A DNA stretch of 64,000 nucleotides from positions 372,001-436,000 of the forward strand of contig JABFQP010000001.1 in assembly GCA_019685655.1 (NCBI GenBank), read 5' to 3'. The stretch's first letter is position 1. Every line of letters begins with the position of its first letter. A model generated the notes under the pieces. That model saw only the letters and a program-made list of their open reading frames with translations, searched no databases and was not told the origin of the DNA. Below, in pieces: positions 2,345 through 29,501 of this stretch. The position numbers were made by a program, and so were the translations under genes. The DNA comes from Candidatus Bathyarchaeota archaeon A05DMB-5 (GTDB taxonomy: Archaea > Thermoproteota > Bathyarchaeia > Bathyarchaeales > Bathycorpusculaceae).

Positions 2345-3574
2345 TTAGGCTTTTCTAGACGCTGCCTTCTCTAACGCGACGACGCCTGGCAGTTTTTTGC
2401 CCATTAAGAATTCTATTAAGGCTCCGCCAGCAGTGCTGACATAGGAGATTTTGTTTGACAGTTTAAGTTCTTGTAGGGCAGATATTGTGTGTCCGCCTCC
2501 TGCGAGAGAAAACGCTTTTGAATTTGCGATTTCTTCGAAGATTTTCTTTGTTCCGTAAACGAATTCTTTGTTTTCGTAGACTCCCATTGGTCCGCTGATG
2601 ACTATTGATTTTGCTTTTCGTATAATCTTAGCGTATTCATCGACAGTTTTTGGTCCAATGTCAAATATTGAATGTTCCGTGGGTAATTCGTTTATGGAAA
2701 TTTCTTTTCGTTTGCCATTTACTTCTACAGCCAAATCACTGGGAGTTTTGATTTTGTCTGGATACTTTTGAATGAGCTCTTTTATGCCTGGCACTAAGCC
2801 CATGAGTTCTTTCTTTTCTAAGAATTCCATGTTTGCCTTGCCGAGGTTGGTGCCTTTTGCAACAAGAAACACGTGACCGACGACTCCGCCGGTAAGCACG
2901 TAATCAGCGATTTTATTGGTCAAAACATACTTTGAGATTTCTAAGGAGTCATCTGCCTTTGCGCCTCCAAGAATGAACACGCATGGTTTTTCTGGGCTCT
3001 CCAAGACTTTACTTAAAGATTTCAATTCTCTTTCCATTATGCGTCCTGCCGCGCTTGGCAAAACAGCCGTGAAGCCTATTATTGAGACGTGTGCTCTATG
3101 GGCTGCTGCGAATGCGTCATTCACAAACAATTGTGCCAAAGGAGCAAGGTTTTGGACAAGTTCTGTTTTGGCGTGAGCTTCTGGCGTGCCTTCTTTTGTT
3201 TCAGTAGCAAAGTTTCTGACGTTGTCTAAGACGAGAATTTCGCCGCTTTTGAGATTTTTTATTGCGTTTTTTGCTTTTTCGCCGAAAACGTCGTCTACAT
3301 ACTTTACTGGTTTTCCTAAATTTTTGCCGAGAATTTTCGCGTGCTGTTTTAGTGGTATAAAGTCTGGGTCGCCTTTTCGTCCTTGATGCGCTAAAACCAC
3401 GACTTTTGCGCCTTTCTCTGCAAGCTCTTTTATTGTTGTTTCGCCATGCGCTCTAATTCTCACATCTTCTAAGACTTTTTGAGTTCTCGGGTCTACTGGC
3501 GAGTTAAAGTCCACTCTGACGAGAACGACTTTATCCTTCACTTTTACGTCATCTATAGTTAGATATTTCACCAT
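2345..3574 (-). CDS. pgk: Phosphoglycerate kinase
   Basis: 409 residues, the usual archaeal length. It interconverts 1,3-bisphosphoglycerate plus ADP and 3-phosphoglycerate plus ATP in lower glycolysis/gluconeogenesis. Visible landmarks are the N-terminal substrate motif VRVDFNSPVD, the interdomain HRAHVS, the nucleotide-domain FILGGAKADD, and the C-terminal AGGGHTISAL loop. The ATG is preceded by AAAGGTGA. It lies 67 bases downstream of gap on the same strand, so the two are probably cotranscribed. Confidence 0.97.
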   Translation of the reverse strand: MVKYLTIDDVKVKDKVVLVRVDFNSPVDPRTQKVLEDVRIRAHGETTIKELAEKGAKVVVLAHQGRKGDPDFIPLKQHAKILGKNLGKPVKYVDDVFGEKAKNAIKNLKSGEILVLDNVRNFATETKEGTPEAHAKTELVQNLAPLAQLFVNDAFAAAHRAHVSIIGFTAVLPSAAGRIMERELKSLSKVLESPEKPCVFILGGAKADDSLEISKYVLTNKIADYVLTGGVVGHVFLVAKGTNLGKANMEFLEKKELMGLVPGIKELIQKYPDKIKTPSDLAVEVNGKRKEISINELPTEHSIFDIGPKTVDEYAKIIRKAKSIVISGPMGVYENKEFVYGTKKIFEEIANSKAFSLAGGGHTISALQELKLSNKISYVSTAGGALIEFLMGKKLPGVVALEKAASRKA

Positions 3575-4655: not shown

Positions 4656-4714
4656 TTAAATCACCTTTAATTTACTCGTGGTTTACTCTCATTCATCTAA
4701 TTAATTTTTTGCGG

Positions 4715-6061
4715 TTACTTTAGCTTCATTAGCACCATTTCAGCAGCTAAAACCAGTGGTTCCCATGTCTCGCATACTGGCGGTGCATATGCCGTGTCTG
4801 CTTTGGCTAATTCGCGGACTGTCATTTGCTTCTGTATTGCAAAGGATATGGCGTTTATGCGCTGGGTTACTTCTTCTCCACCGATTATTTGTGCTCCGAT
4901 TATTCGCTGTGATTCTTTTTCGACGACAAGTTTTACTTTGATTGGTCTTGCACCAGGGTAATAGTCTGCTTTCGTTTTTGAAGTTATTGTTCCAGTTACA
5001 ACGTCAATCTTTGCTCTTTGCGCTGCAGCTTCGGTCAATCCAGTAACGCCTGCCTCCGTGTCATAAAGTCTAGTCACAGCCGAACCTAAAACTCCAGTGA
5101 ATAGCGCGTAACCACCAGCAGCGTTAATTCCCGCGACTTTTCCATGTCTCACGGCGACCGTTCCAAGTTGTTGAACAGCTGGTTTTTGTGTGACTATGTG
5201 GATGCTTTCTGCACAGTCGCCTATCGCGTAAATGTCTTTGACGTTTGTTTCCATTCTCGCATTTGTCTTTATTGTTTTGGTTTCTCCCAAAGCAACGCCA
5301 GCGTCAACTGCAAGTTGAGTGTTGGCTCTCACGCCGAACGCGCTAACGAACAAATCCGCGTTAATTTGTTGTCCACCAGCCATTATGCCTGTCACTTTTT
5401 CTGTTCCAAGAAATTCCTCTACGCCTTTTCCGGTTAGGATGTTTATTCCTTTTGTTTGGAGCATTTCTTGAATCATGCTTGCCATGTCTGCATCAAGCAT
5501 CATTGGGAGTATCTGAGGCAATAGTTCGACAACTGTGACTTTTAAGCCTCTTTCTTGGAGAGCTACTGCTACTTCGAGACCGATTAGGCCTGCTCCCATG
5601 ACTACTGCGGTTTTAGCTCCGTTTCTGATTGCTTCTTCTATTCTTTCTCCGTCTTCTAATGTTCGTAGGGAGTGTATGCCTTGTTTTTCTTTGCCTTTAA
5701 TAGGCGGCGTGAAGGAGTTTGCGCCTGTTGCTAGGATTAGGCTGTCATAGGGTAAGGCTTCAGTTTTGCCAGTTTTGTCTACTGTTTCGACGGTTTTGTT
5801 TCCAGTGTTAATTTTTGTGACTTTGGTTTCAGTTTTGAGGTTGAGTTTCATCATTTGGTAGAAGGATGGTGGAAAAACGATTAGGTTTTGAAAGCTTGGT
5901 ATATGCCCTGCGAGCACGAATGGCAGTCCACAACGTGAGTAACCCGCGTGTTTTTCTTCTGTTATTAACGTTATTTCTGCGGTGCGGTCGGTTTTTCTAG
6001 CTGCTGATGCAGCATCGACGCCTGCAGCATGTGCGCCAATTATTACTATGCGTCTCGGCAT
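4715..6061 (-). CDS. FAD-dependent CoA-disulfide reductase / NADH oxidase-like flavoprotein
   Basis: 448 residues. The FAD dinucleotide fold begins at IVIIGAHAAG, the NAD(P)H fold at VVMGAGLIGLEVA, and the second FAD motif is IYAIGDCAE. The single redox Cys44 in YSRCGLPF is typical of class III pyridine nucleotide disulfide oxidoreductases (CoA-disulfide reductase, NADH oxidase, persulfide reductase). It lacks the CxxxxC pair of dihydrolipoamide dehydrogenase. The gene starts 13 bases after the gcvH stop, so the two are one transcription unit. CoA disulfide or polysulfide is the likely substrate; a link to lipoyl-protein chemistry is possible but only inferred from position. Confidence 0.85.
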   Translation of the reverse strand: MPRRIVIIGAHAAGVDAASAARKTDRTAEITLITEEKHAGYSRCGLPFVLAGHIPSFQNLIVFPPSFYQMMKLNLKTETKVTKINTGNKTVETVDKTGKTEALPYDSLILATGANSFTPPIKGKEKQGIHSLRTLEDGERIEEAIRNGAKTAVVMGAGLIGLEVAVALQERGLKVTVVELLPQILPMMLDADMASMIQEMLQTKGINILTGKGVEEFLGTEKVTGIMAGGQQINADLFVSAFGVRANTQLAVDAGVALGETKTIKTNARMETNVKDIYAIGDCAESIHIVTQKPAVQQLGTVAVRHGKVAGINAAGGYALFTGVLGSAVTRLYDTEAGVTGLTEAAAQRAKIDVVTGTITSKTKADYYPGARPIKVKLVVEKESQRIIGAQIIGGEEVTQRINAISFAIQKQMTVRELAKADTAYAPPVCETWEPLVLAAEMVLMKLK

Positions 6062-27394: not shown

Positions 27395-29194
27395 TCATTT
27401 TCGCAACTCACGTACGTAATAGTACTCTCCGATTTGTTTTTGAAACTTGTCCAGCTTTGAGTTTTCCTTGTTGACTCTTGGTCTTTTTGTAGTTGGGTCT
27501 CTTCGGAAAGTGACTTCCATGTCCTTCAAAAACATGTTCATTCCGTCTCTCAGGCTCACGGGTGGGTTTGCGGTTCCTTTCACTCCGGGCTCTCCCGTAA
27601 AAACCATTAGGCGGTCTGCTATAAAGTCTTGGGCAACCACATCATGTTCGACGACGAAGGCTGTCACGTTATGTGCTTCTACGATTCTTCTGATTGTTCG
27701 TGCCATGCTCAACCGTTCTTCAACGTCTAAGTAAGCGCTTGGTTCGTCAAGTAGGTATAGTTGAGCTTTGCGTGATAGACAAGCGGCAATGGCGACTTTT
27801 TGTAGTTCGCCACCGCTGAGTTCGGTTAGATTTCTATCCAGAAGAGGTTCTACATTTAGGGGTTGAATGATTTCTGTTTTGTACCAGCTTGAGGTGAAGT
27901 TTTCTTTTGCGACGTTTTTAAGGAGTTCTTGAACTGTACTTTCGGATTCTGCGGAGATGTATTGAGGTTTGTAGCTTACTTCTAATTCTCCAAATTTGAC
28001 CCCACCATCTGCTTCTTCGATTCCAGCAAGAATTTTCACAAAGGTTGTTTTTCCAATACCGTTTGGTCCAAGAATGCCGATGATTTCGCCTCTCTTTATT
28101 TCTCCAGGGCTTGCAACAAACTTGAAACCTTCATAGGTTTTTTCGATTTGTCCCCATTTCAGTTGTGTTTCGCCGACATCAAAGCTTGTGCGTGGAGGTT
28201 TCTCATGAAATATTATGGCTTCTTTTCTGAATCTGACGTTTTCGTCTGGGATATATCCTTCCAAGTAAATGTTTATTCCAGTTCTTACGCCGTGAACGTT
28301 AGAAACTACGCCGTAGACACCTGGCTCTCCGTAAAAAATGCAGATTTGGTCTGATAAGTAGTCTATTATTGCTAGGTCATGTTCTGCTACGATAACTGTT
28401 TTTTCTTCATCCTTTAAACTTCTTATTGCTTTAGCTACTTCCAACCTTTGTTTCACGTCTAAATAGCTTGATGGTTCGTCGAAAAGATACACGTCAGCTT
28501 CGCGGCAAATTGCCGCAGCGACGGCTACACGTTGCAGTTCGCCTCCGCTTAAAACGTCTAATGGGCGGTTCCATAGCTGTTTCAGTTCAAGTTGTTCAGA
28601 GATTTCTTCAAGTTTCTTTCTTTCGTTTACTTTCTCGAGTAGTTCTCCAACTTTTCCAGACACAGCCTTTGGAATTTTGTCTACATATTGTGGCTTATGC
28701 GAAATCTTGAGTTTATTTTCGCTCATCTTTTGGAAATATCCTTGGAGCGTTGAACCTCTATAATGTGTGATTATTCCGTTCCATTCTGGCGGCGTTTCGT
28801 AATTTCCAAGGTTTAGTTTGATTTCTCCAGAGAGTATTTTAAGCGCTGTTGTTTTGCCTATTCCGTTTTGCCCAAGCAAACCTAAAACCATGCTGGGGGC
28901 AGGTGTTGGCAGCCTGTAGAGTTTGAATGTGTTTTCTCCAAAGCGATGGCTACAATCTTTTTCTAACTCATCTGGAAGGTTGACTATTGAGATGGCTTTG
29001 AACGGGCATTTTTTTACGCATATTCCGCATCCAGTGCAGAGAGATTCAACAATTACGGCTTTGTCATCTTCAAATCGTATGGCTTCTATGCGTGTGCGCA
29101 CTATAGGGCAAAAGTGATGGCATAGTCTATTGCAACGTTTTGGCTTGCACTTGTCAAAGTCTATCACTGCAACTCTCGTCATGTCTCGTCCCAT
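27395..29194 (-). CDS. abce1: Ribosome recycling ATPase ABCE1 (RLI)
   Basis: 599 residues. Two N-terminal 4Fe-4S clusters are set by CKPKRCNRLCHHFCP and CTGCGICVKKCP; two ABC cassettes follow with Walker A GQNGIGKTT and GPNGIGKTT, signature LSGGELQ twice, and the hinge region between. It splits the 70S ribosome after termination. A TATA box (29236-29246 on the minus strand) lies about 45 bases before the ATG at 29194; an ATG four codons in is also possible. The micro-gene of EEEEW repeats lies 111 bases upstream on the same strand. Confidence 0.97.
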   Translation of the reverse strand: MGRDMTRVAVIDFDKCKPKRCNRLCHHFCPIVRTRIEAIRFEDDKAVIVESLCTGCGICVKKCPFKAISIVNLPDELEKDCSHRFGENTFKLYRLPTPAPSMVLGLLGQNGIGKTTALKILSGEIKLNLGNYETPPEWNGIITHYRGSTLQGYFQKMSENKLKISHKPQYVDKIPKAVSGKVGELLEKVNERKKLEEISEQLELKQLWNRPLDVLSGGELQRVAVAAAICREADVYLFDEPSSYLDVKQRLEVAKAIRSLKDEEKTVIVAEHDLAIIDYLSDQICIFYGEPGVYGVVSNVHGVRTGINIYLEGYIPDENVRFRKEAIIFHEKPPRTSFDVGETQLKWGQIEKTYEGFKFVASPGEIKRGEIIGILGPNGIGKTTFVKILAGIEEADGGVKFGELEVSYKPQYISAESESTVQELLKNVAKENFTSSWYKTEIIQPLNVEPLLDRNLTELSGGELQKVAIAACLSRKAQLYLLDEPSAYLDVEERLSMARTIRRIVEAHNVTAFVVEHDVVAQDFIADRLMVFTGEPGVKGTANPPVSLRDGMNMFLKDMEVTFRRDPTTKRPRVNKENSKLDKFQKQIGEYYYVRELRK

Positions 29195-29235
29195 ATCGCA
29201 TGTTAGCTAGTATAGTCTAAACATAAACATCAAAA

Positions 29236-29246
29236 TTATATAAAAA
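29236..29246 (-). promoter_or_regulatory. TATA box of abce1
   Basis: TTTATATAATT on the minus strand, just downstream of the terminator-like T-run that ends the EEEEW gene. It would place the abce1 transcript start near 29215. Confidence 0.55.
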
Positions 29247-29276: not shown

Positions 29277-29283
29277 AAAAAAA
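29277..29283 (-). terminator. T7 terminator after the EEEEW micro-gene
   Basis: Seven consecutive T on the minus strand, 22 bases past the TAA, followed by further T-rich sequence. It should end most transcripts of the micro-gene before abce1, though readthrough is possible. Confidence 0.45.
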
Positions 29284-29304: not shown

Positions 29305-29373
29305 TTACCATTCTTCCTCTTCCCACTCTTCTTCTTCCCATTCCTCTTCTTCCCATTCCTCTTCCTCTCGCAT
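29305..29373 (-). CDS. 22-residue micro-protein of four EEEEW repeats
   Basis: The ATG at 29373 follows a perfect GGAGGTGA by four bases. The product is Met-Arg followed by exactly four units of EEEEW, then TAA directly after the last Trp. The four units use different mixtures of GAA and GAG codons, so the protein repeat is exact while the DNA repeat is not; this points to selection on the peptide. TATAAAAA at 29436-29443 and the T-run at 29277-29283 give it its own transcription unit. I know of no described family. It lies directly upstream of the ribosome-splitting factor abce1. Confidence 0.7.
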   Translation of the reverse strand: MREEEEWEEEEWEEEEWEEEEW

Positions 29374-29435
29374 TTTTTCACCTCCATCTGCTTTGTGTTT
29401 AGGGATGCAAGAGAAACCTACCGTTGCTTTAAGCA

Positions 29436-29443
29436 TTTTTATA
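29436..29443 (-). promoter_or_regulatory. TATA box of the EEEEW micro-gene
   Basis: TATAAAAA on the minus strand, about 63 bases before the ATG; transcription would start near 29414, giving a leader of about 40 bases. Confidence 0.5.
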
Positions 29444-29501
29444 CGTCACTTGTCGAGAATAGCAACCAAAAGGCGTGTTTGTCTACGTATTTTTAGATGT
29501 T

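Follow-up and report, generated by a model that had tools for sequence, protein, structure and literature searches.

The short reading frame directly upstream of abce1 in the window (the whole 64,000-nt stretch of DNA that was analyzed) would, in our preferred reading, be the gene for a trans-acting microprotein of an undescribed archaeal family that is functionally tied to ABCE1; taken as a whole, we give this reading roughly even odds (about 0.5). Its parts differ in strength. Judged from sequence comparison, the frame almost certainly encodes a real, translated, and conserved microprotein, which very probably acts in trans, and a function tied to ABCE1 or translation is somewhat favored. 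Few proteins of archaea and eukaryotes are as highly conserved as ABCE1, and a tiny, usually single-copy neighbor that recurs in many archaeal families yet is missing from protein-family libraries would provide a direct handle on ABCE1 regulation or loading in archaea. It may also mean that archaeal translation has an unrecognized protein component. The question is directly testable because genetic systems exist for Sulfolobaceae and for Thermococcales, both of which include carriers.

The Microgene and Its Expression Signals

On the minus strand of the window, ATG and CGA are followed by four EEEEW units and a TAA stop codon (Table 1). The first-pass annotation had described this MR(EEEEW)4 frame behind GGAGGTGA, with GAA/GAG choice differing among the four units, and the window sequence confirms both points. 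GGAGGTGA occurs only three times across the window, and at least 4 nt of it stand ahead of the assigned start codon in 148 of the 173 members. Among 300 Markov-1 windows matched in composition, none gave a comparable frame, defined as at least three Glu, Trp, at least three Glu, Trp, and stop.

Table 1. Features of the microgene and abce1 in the window
Feature	Position	Strand	Remarks
Microprotein gene	29305..29373	(-)	Product MREEEEWEEEEWEEEEWEEEEW*, 22 aa, net charge -15; kept in relatives
Shine-Dalgarno sequence GGAGGTGA	29378..29385	(-)	4 nt 5' of ATG
Microgene promoter core TATAAAAATGCTTAAA (BRE/TATA-like)	29428..29443	(-)	Similar element at similar distance in most relatives printed
Dyad TCGACA-NN-TG(A/T)CGA	29443..29456	(-)	Just 5' of TATA element; conserved in relatives; candidate regulator site
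T7 run	29277..29283	(-)	3' of stop codon; putative archaeal terminator; T-rich runs in most relatives printed
Putative separate abce1 promoter (TATA-like) TTTTTATATAATTTT ... TTTATG	29223..29246	(-)	Similar box in many relatives
abce1 (ribosome-splitting ATPase, two 4Fe-4S clusters)	27395..29194	(-)	Conserved neighbor, next gene on strand

The TATA box and T-run that had been reported for the microgene are likewise present, as a TATA-like element and a run of seven T residues that is likely an archaeal terminator. The dyad next to the TATA-like element, a likely regulator site, occurs once in the window's genome. Eight family genomes carry it at the microgene promoter; extra sites are limited to G005 (one) and G012 (two). 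Because it is unique in its own genome and nearly unique in relatives, it points to dedicated regulation of the microgene. In many relatives, TTTATAAC or a similar box lies about 45 nt upstream of the conserved MTRV start of abce1. Since such a box precedes abce1 and a T-rich stretch follows the microgene, the two genes are likely separate transcription units in Bathyarchaeia.

Conservation of the Encoded Peptide

For an alignment of 48 distinct sequences anchored at three Trp residues, pS is 0.71 and pN is 0.16, a pN/pS of about 0.23 computed only on codons outside the search pattern. Glu codons interchange GAA and GAG at the third position while keeping the first and second, spacing shifts by whole codons, and the Shine-Dalgarno sequence, start, and stop are conserved across members. 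This pattern of change indicates purifying selection on the coding frame. Nonsynonymous drift of the repeats had been named beforehand as an observation that would count against the frame; the exact EEEEW period does drift, but synonymous change exceeds nonsynonymous change. Similarly, the description of exactly four EEEEW units is true of the window frame but does not capture the conserved feature, as unit number and Glu run length vary. Among the relatives seen, the exact four-unit form is shared only by the second genome of the window's genus, and the four exact repeats are best regarded as an incidental, local state of the window.

What is kept in the family is acidity, interspersed Trp residues, and a mostly terminal Trp, with broad spacing between aromatic residues or Leu. 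Members are 20–60 residues long, and the distinct peptides consist of 62% Glu, 6% Asp, and 15% Trp. Position -3 is Glu or Asp in 133 of 133 distinct peptides, although the C-terminal figures of this set are biased by the search pattern. A fairer set comprises 25 more members taken from abce1-upstream regions with no requirement for a terminal Trp, and 23 of these end in Trp. The terminal Trp has been lost in G161, G086, G017, G085, and G129. As judged by these comparisons, conservation in the family lies in composition, terminal residue, and context, not in a sequence that can be aligned, and for such low-complexity sequences homology across phyla cannot be proved by alignment.

Distribution across Archaea

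Of 21 genomes, counting that of the window, a DNA search located the microgene's place in 18, and nearly every relative locus read holds a short frame built of Glu/Asp runs and Trp. Larger samples were searched with the pattern W-EEE..E-W-stop, with the reversed pattern as control. Conservation of the frame in related archaea, on which the first-pass annotation had staked its reading, holds. At least 83 of 257 Bathyarchaeia genomes match, almost always with one copy (reversed control, 0 genomes), as do at least 121 of 397 genomes in the Thermoproteota sample (reversed control, 2 genomes) and at least 26 of 115 in the Thermococcus phylum (reversed control, 0 genomes). These counts are lower bounds, as the pattern misses TAG stop codons (in its first form) and Asp or Phe substitutions. 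A global genome scan gave at least 120 matches, of which about 100 among those listed are archaeal; the bacterial ones among those listed are either out of frame or isolated tails that lack a preceding E/W pattern. Carriers were seen in Bathyarchaeia, Desulfurococcales, Pyrodictiaceae, Ignisphaera, Sulfolobales, Pyrobaculum, Thermococcus, Nanobsidianus, and Geothermarchaeota, and the frame is usually single-copy in a carrier genome. A viral origin was considered and rejected: the scan of viral contigs returned only out-of-frame or chance matches, and PHROGs gave none.

A recognizable copy is absent from many genomes, among them most of those in Bathyarchaeia families f10 and f27 and those of families f29 and f30 of the phylum, so ABCE1 does not generally require the microprotein. 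At two loci (L193 in G159 and L194 in G158), a degenerate microgene lies upstream of abce1 and is apparently decaying; that of G158 reads MIVEEKDSEEKEW-stop. Other members are longer or duplicated. Those of the Thermococcus phylum (L325-L332) reach about 50–60 aa, share a conserved basic start that reads MQPKKKVKK or MQPPKKKK, and occupy two or more different sites remote from abce1. One genome (G278) of the Pyrobaculum-like family f35 has, in addition to an ordinary copy, two extra tail copies (L271 and L272) behind a Cys-containing stretch, SGCFALIPDPFAPQHPIPVSCEEYCKK.

Linkage to abce1

That abce1 is the next gene downstream had been noted for the window; the observation is real, and the link is far more widespread than one window. 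When both genes are on the same contig in Bathyarchaeia, the microgene is upstream of and codirectional with abce1 in 61 of 62 pairs, mostly with a gap of 51–204 nt and in 12 cases with 0.6–2.3 kb between them. In Sulfolobaceae, abce1 adjoins the microgene at +32 to +55 nt. Adjacency is seen again and again, in about 25 families from several orders, including Desulfurococcales and Pyrodictiaceae, and the other neighbors are reshuffled where the two genes adjoin. In one Bathyarchaeia genome, two tandem abce1 copies lie downstream of the microgene (G110:C62:5406-9082).

The arrangement is not invariant. The two genes are divergent in some Desulfurococcales and in families f20 and f44, and at some loci whole genes separate them. 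In Thermococcus, Pyrobaculum, Nanobsidianus, Geothermarchaeota, and Bathyarchaeia family f9, the microgene is unlinked from abce1, which at such loci sits elsewhere in the same genome. Because copies are gene-separated, divergent, or unlinked, a microprotein acting in trans is favored over a leader acting in cis. Because several lineages do not have the microgene beside abce1, the link may also be inherited synteny. The Nanobsidianus microgene (L096, about 4700–4800) lies between NMD3 and aIF1A in a translation cluster, with gene names assigned by eye. At L281, the microgene is near uL4/uL23.

Proposed Mode of Action

How might so small a protein act on ABCE1? As the protein is too acidic and its spacing too variable, no fixed fold is expected, and the peptide would be disordered and engage in multivalent, low-complexity binding. 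In the window, residues 1–200 of ABCE1 carry a net charge of +9 compared with -15 for the peptide. The Glu runs and spaced Trp residues could dock on a basic and hydrophobic surface of ABCE1, with the free EEEEW C terminus serving as an anchor. A comparable case is the C-terminal tail of the archaeal stalk protein aP1, which binds aEF1A, aEF2, aIF5B, and aABCE1 and whose flexible C terminus takes different conformations on several translation factors (PMC6791870). By this analogy, the microprotein may modulate the holding of ABCE1, its delivery to the ribosome, or its release from the ribosome, and other factors that bind the stalk tail are possible further targets. A stalk-tail-like binding of ABCE1 in particular is a speculative proposal that we consider rather unlikely to be right in this specific form. 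The broader idea is tentative and falls somewhat short of even odds: a dedicated ribosome-recycling partner, a free acidic-Trp tail controlling ABCE1, may have been present in at least Thermoproteota and Thermococcales, and perhaps Nanoarchaeota, since their ancestor, with length and repeat period left unfixed.

Alternative Explanations

The main rival is a general role with no specific tie to ABCE1: the peptide would act on basic proteins of the ribosome or chromatin as a polyanionic chaperone, as a condensation partner, or by mimicking nucleic acid. Such a role would suit the Glu- and Trp-rich composition with its drifting spacing, which fits fuzzy binding, and the basic N termini of Thermococcal and some bathyarchaeial members (MQPPKKKK and MSKRKTPPK). 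It would also suit unlinked copies such as those whose neighbors are speH in Pyrobaculum and moeA or other metabolic genes in Thermococcales (names by eye). It does not account for the recurrence of abce1 as the adjoining gene in so many families while other neighbors are reshuffled, and we consider it unlikely, if the strongest of the competing explanations.

A second alternative is that the peptide is an adaptor in ABCE1 maturation, with its EEW C terminus passing apo-ABCE1 to the Fe-S insertion machinery in the manner of Lto1. There is precedent: Lto1 brings Rli1/ABCE1 to the eukaryotic Fe-S machinery, and its C-terminal Trp is needed for Rli1 maturation (PMC4523923). The microprotein ends in D/E-W-COOH beside abce1, and the terminal Trp predominates in the fairer set of 25 as well. 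The CIA signal is [LIM]-[DES]-[WF]-COOH, in which the aromatic residue and carboxylate dominate (PMC10623007, PMC13082141). The microprotein has the Trp at -1 and Glu or Asp at -2, but at -3 it has Glu or Asp rather than Leu, Ile, or Met. A C-terminal Trp is found on under 1% of Fe-S proteins in Escherichia coli and Methanocaldococcus jannaschii (PMC10623007). EEW-stop does not behave as a general tag: the window's own genome has two in-frame cases, one being the microprotein and the other an unrelated short frame, and across seven other genomes the frequency of GARGARTGGTRR is close to that of its reversed control. The archaeal relative of Cia2 (PF01883) was not found in carriers G011, G019, and G020, and where the archaeal Cia2-like protein is present it is about 99 aa long, with its alignment to fly Cia2b stopping at residue 100 of the fly chain, before the R134 anchor. 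A reading of the terminal Trp by Cia2 was rejected on these two grounds, the missing domain in some carriers and a reading region that is not alignable. A Cia2-read signal is thus weakened and a role in Fe-S maturation via another partner is possible, but the maturation adaptor is improbable overall.

Much less probable still is a leader peptide acting in cis, in which translation of the frame or stalling on it would set abce1 expression. The first-pass annotation had left two options, a sensing leader peptide and a free acidic/aromatic microprotein. The strong Shine-Dalgarno sequence and the usual distance of 100–200 nt to abce1 would be in keeping with a leader, as would the destabilization of translating bacterial ribosomes by acidic runs near an N terminus, to which the first-pass annotation had pointed. 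However, the product is kept far from abce1, in divergent orientation, and with whole genes between, where action in cis on abce1 is impossible; abce1 seems to be served by a promoter of its own near its start; and there are longer members with extra N-terminal sequence. The free microprotein fares far better and is strongly supported by the conservation of the family with and without an adjoining abce1. Finally, a repeat or a DNA or RNA element read by chance as a frame, which the low-complexity sequence might suggest, is ruled out for practical purposes by the Markov control and by the codon test, which shows third-position GAA/GAG variation with first and second positions kept, alongside conserved translation signals, whole-codon spacing changes, and almost no reversed-pattern matches.

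Comparison with Known Systems

Regardless of its target, the microprotein, tied by preference to ABCE1 in our reading, appears to be a new kind of archaeal family and a member of no known one. In agreement with the earlier remark that no described family was known to its author, Pfam, NCBIfam, PHROGs, and the PDB gave no match for pure E/W peptides, in searches whose sensitivity is limited by low-complexity sequence and filters. In the open-access literature searched, no text with WEEEEW and no described E/W microprotein family were found. The family is an example of one missed by homology searches, with composition, terminal residue, and context conserved.

The tail of the archaeal stalk protein aP1 has an acidic stretch. 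It is flexible, as the microprotein is predicted to be, and has a hydrophobic or aromatic tip that binds translation factors, aABCE1 included (PMC6791870). Unlike the microprotein, it is part of a larger ribosomal protein and has no repeated E(n)W units, and its tip is formed by hydrophobic residues other than Trp; the parallel is physicochemical only, and homology is not claimed. Lto1 (ORAOV1) and the CIA targeting (TCR) tripeptide share with the microprotein a C-terminal Trp, preceded in the TCR by an acidic residue, and act on Rli1/ABCE1 (PMC4523923, PMC10623007). In contrast to them, the microprotein has no deca-GX3 domain, being made of Glu, Asp, and Trp plus a few other residues, and no [LIM] at -3. 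Moreover, the Cia1-Cia2-Mms19 reader complex is eukaryotic, whereas the archaeal Cia2-like protein was not found in some carriers and elsewhere has no C-terminal reading region.

The amino-group carriers LysW and ArgW are small proteins with an acidic C-terminal tail that contains Trp, and LysW ends in a substrate-accepting Glu. The microprotein is similarly small and acidic with Trp in its C-terminal tail, but it ends in Trp, and a zinc ribbon is present in no member seen other than L159. There, a frame ending at 3022 encodes a LysW-like zinc-ribbon protein with the C-terminal tail EEEEWEEEEEEEWDEWEEEEW. This fusion is matched by zinc-ribbon models in a profile search and is the only one seen between an E/W tail and a recognizable domain. 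In bacterial SSB and T7 gp2.5, an acidic run with an aromatic end residue forms a protein-docking tip. In those proteins the tip is the tail of a larger protein, whereas here the tip is the whole protein.
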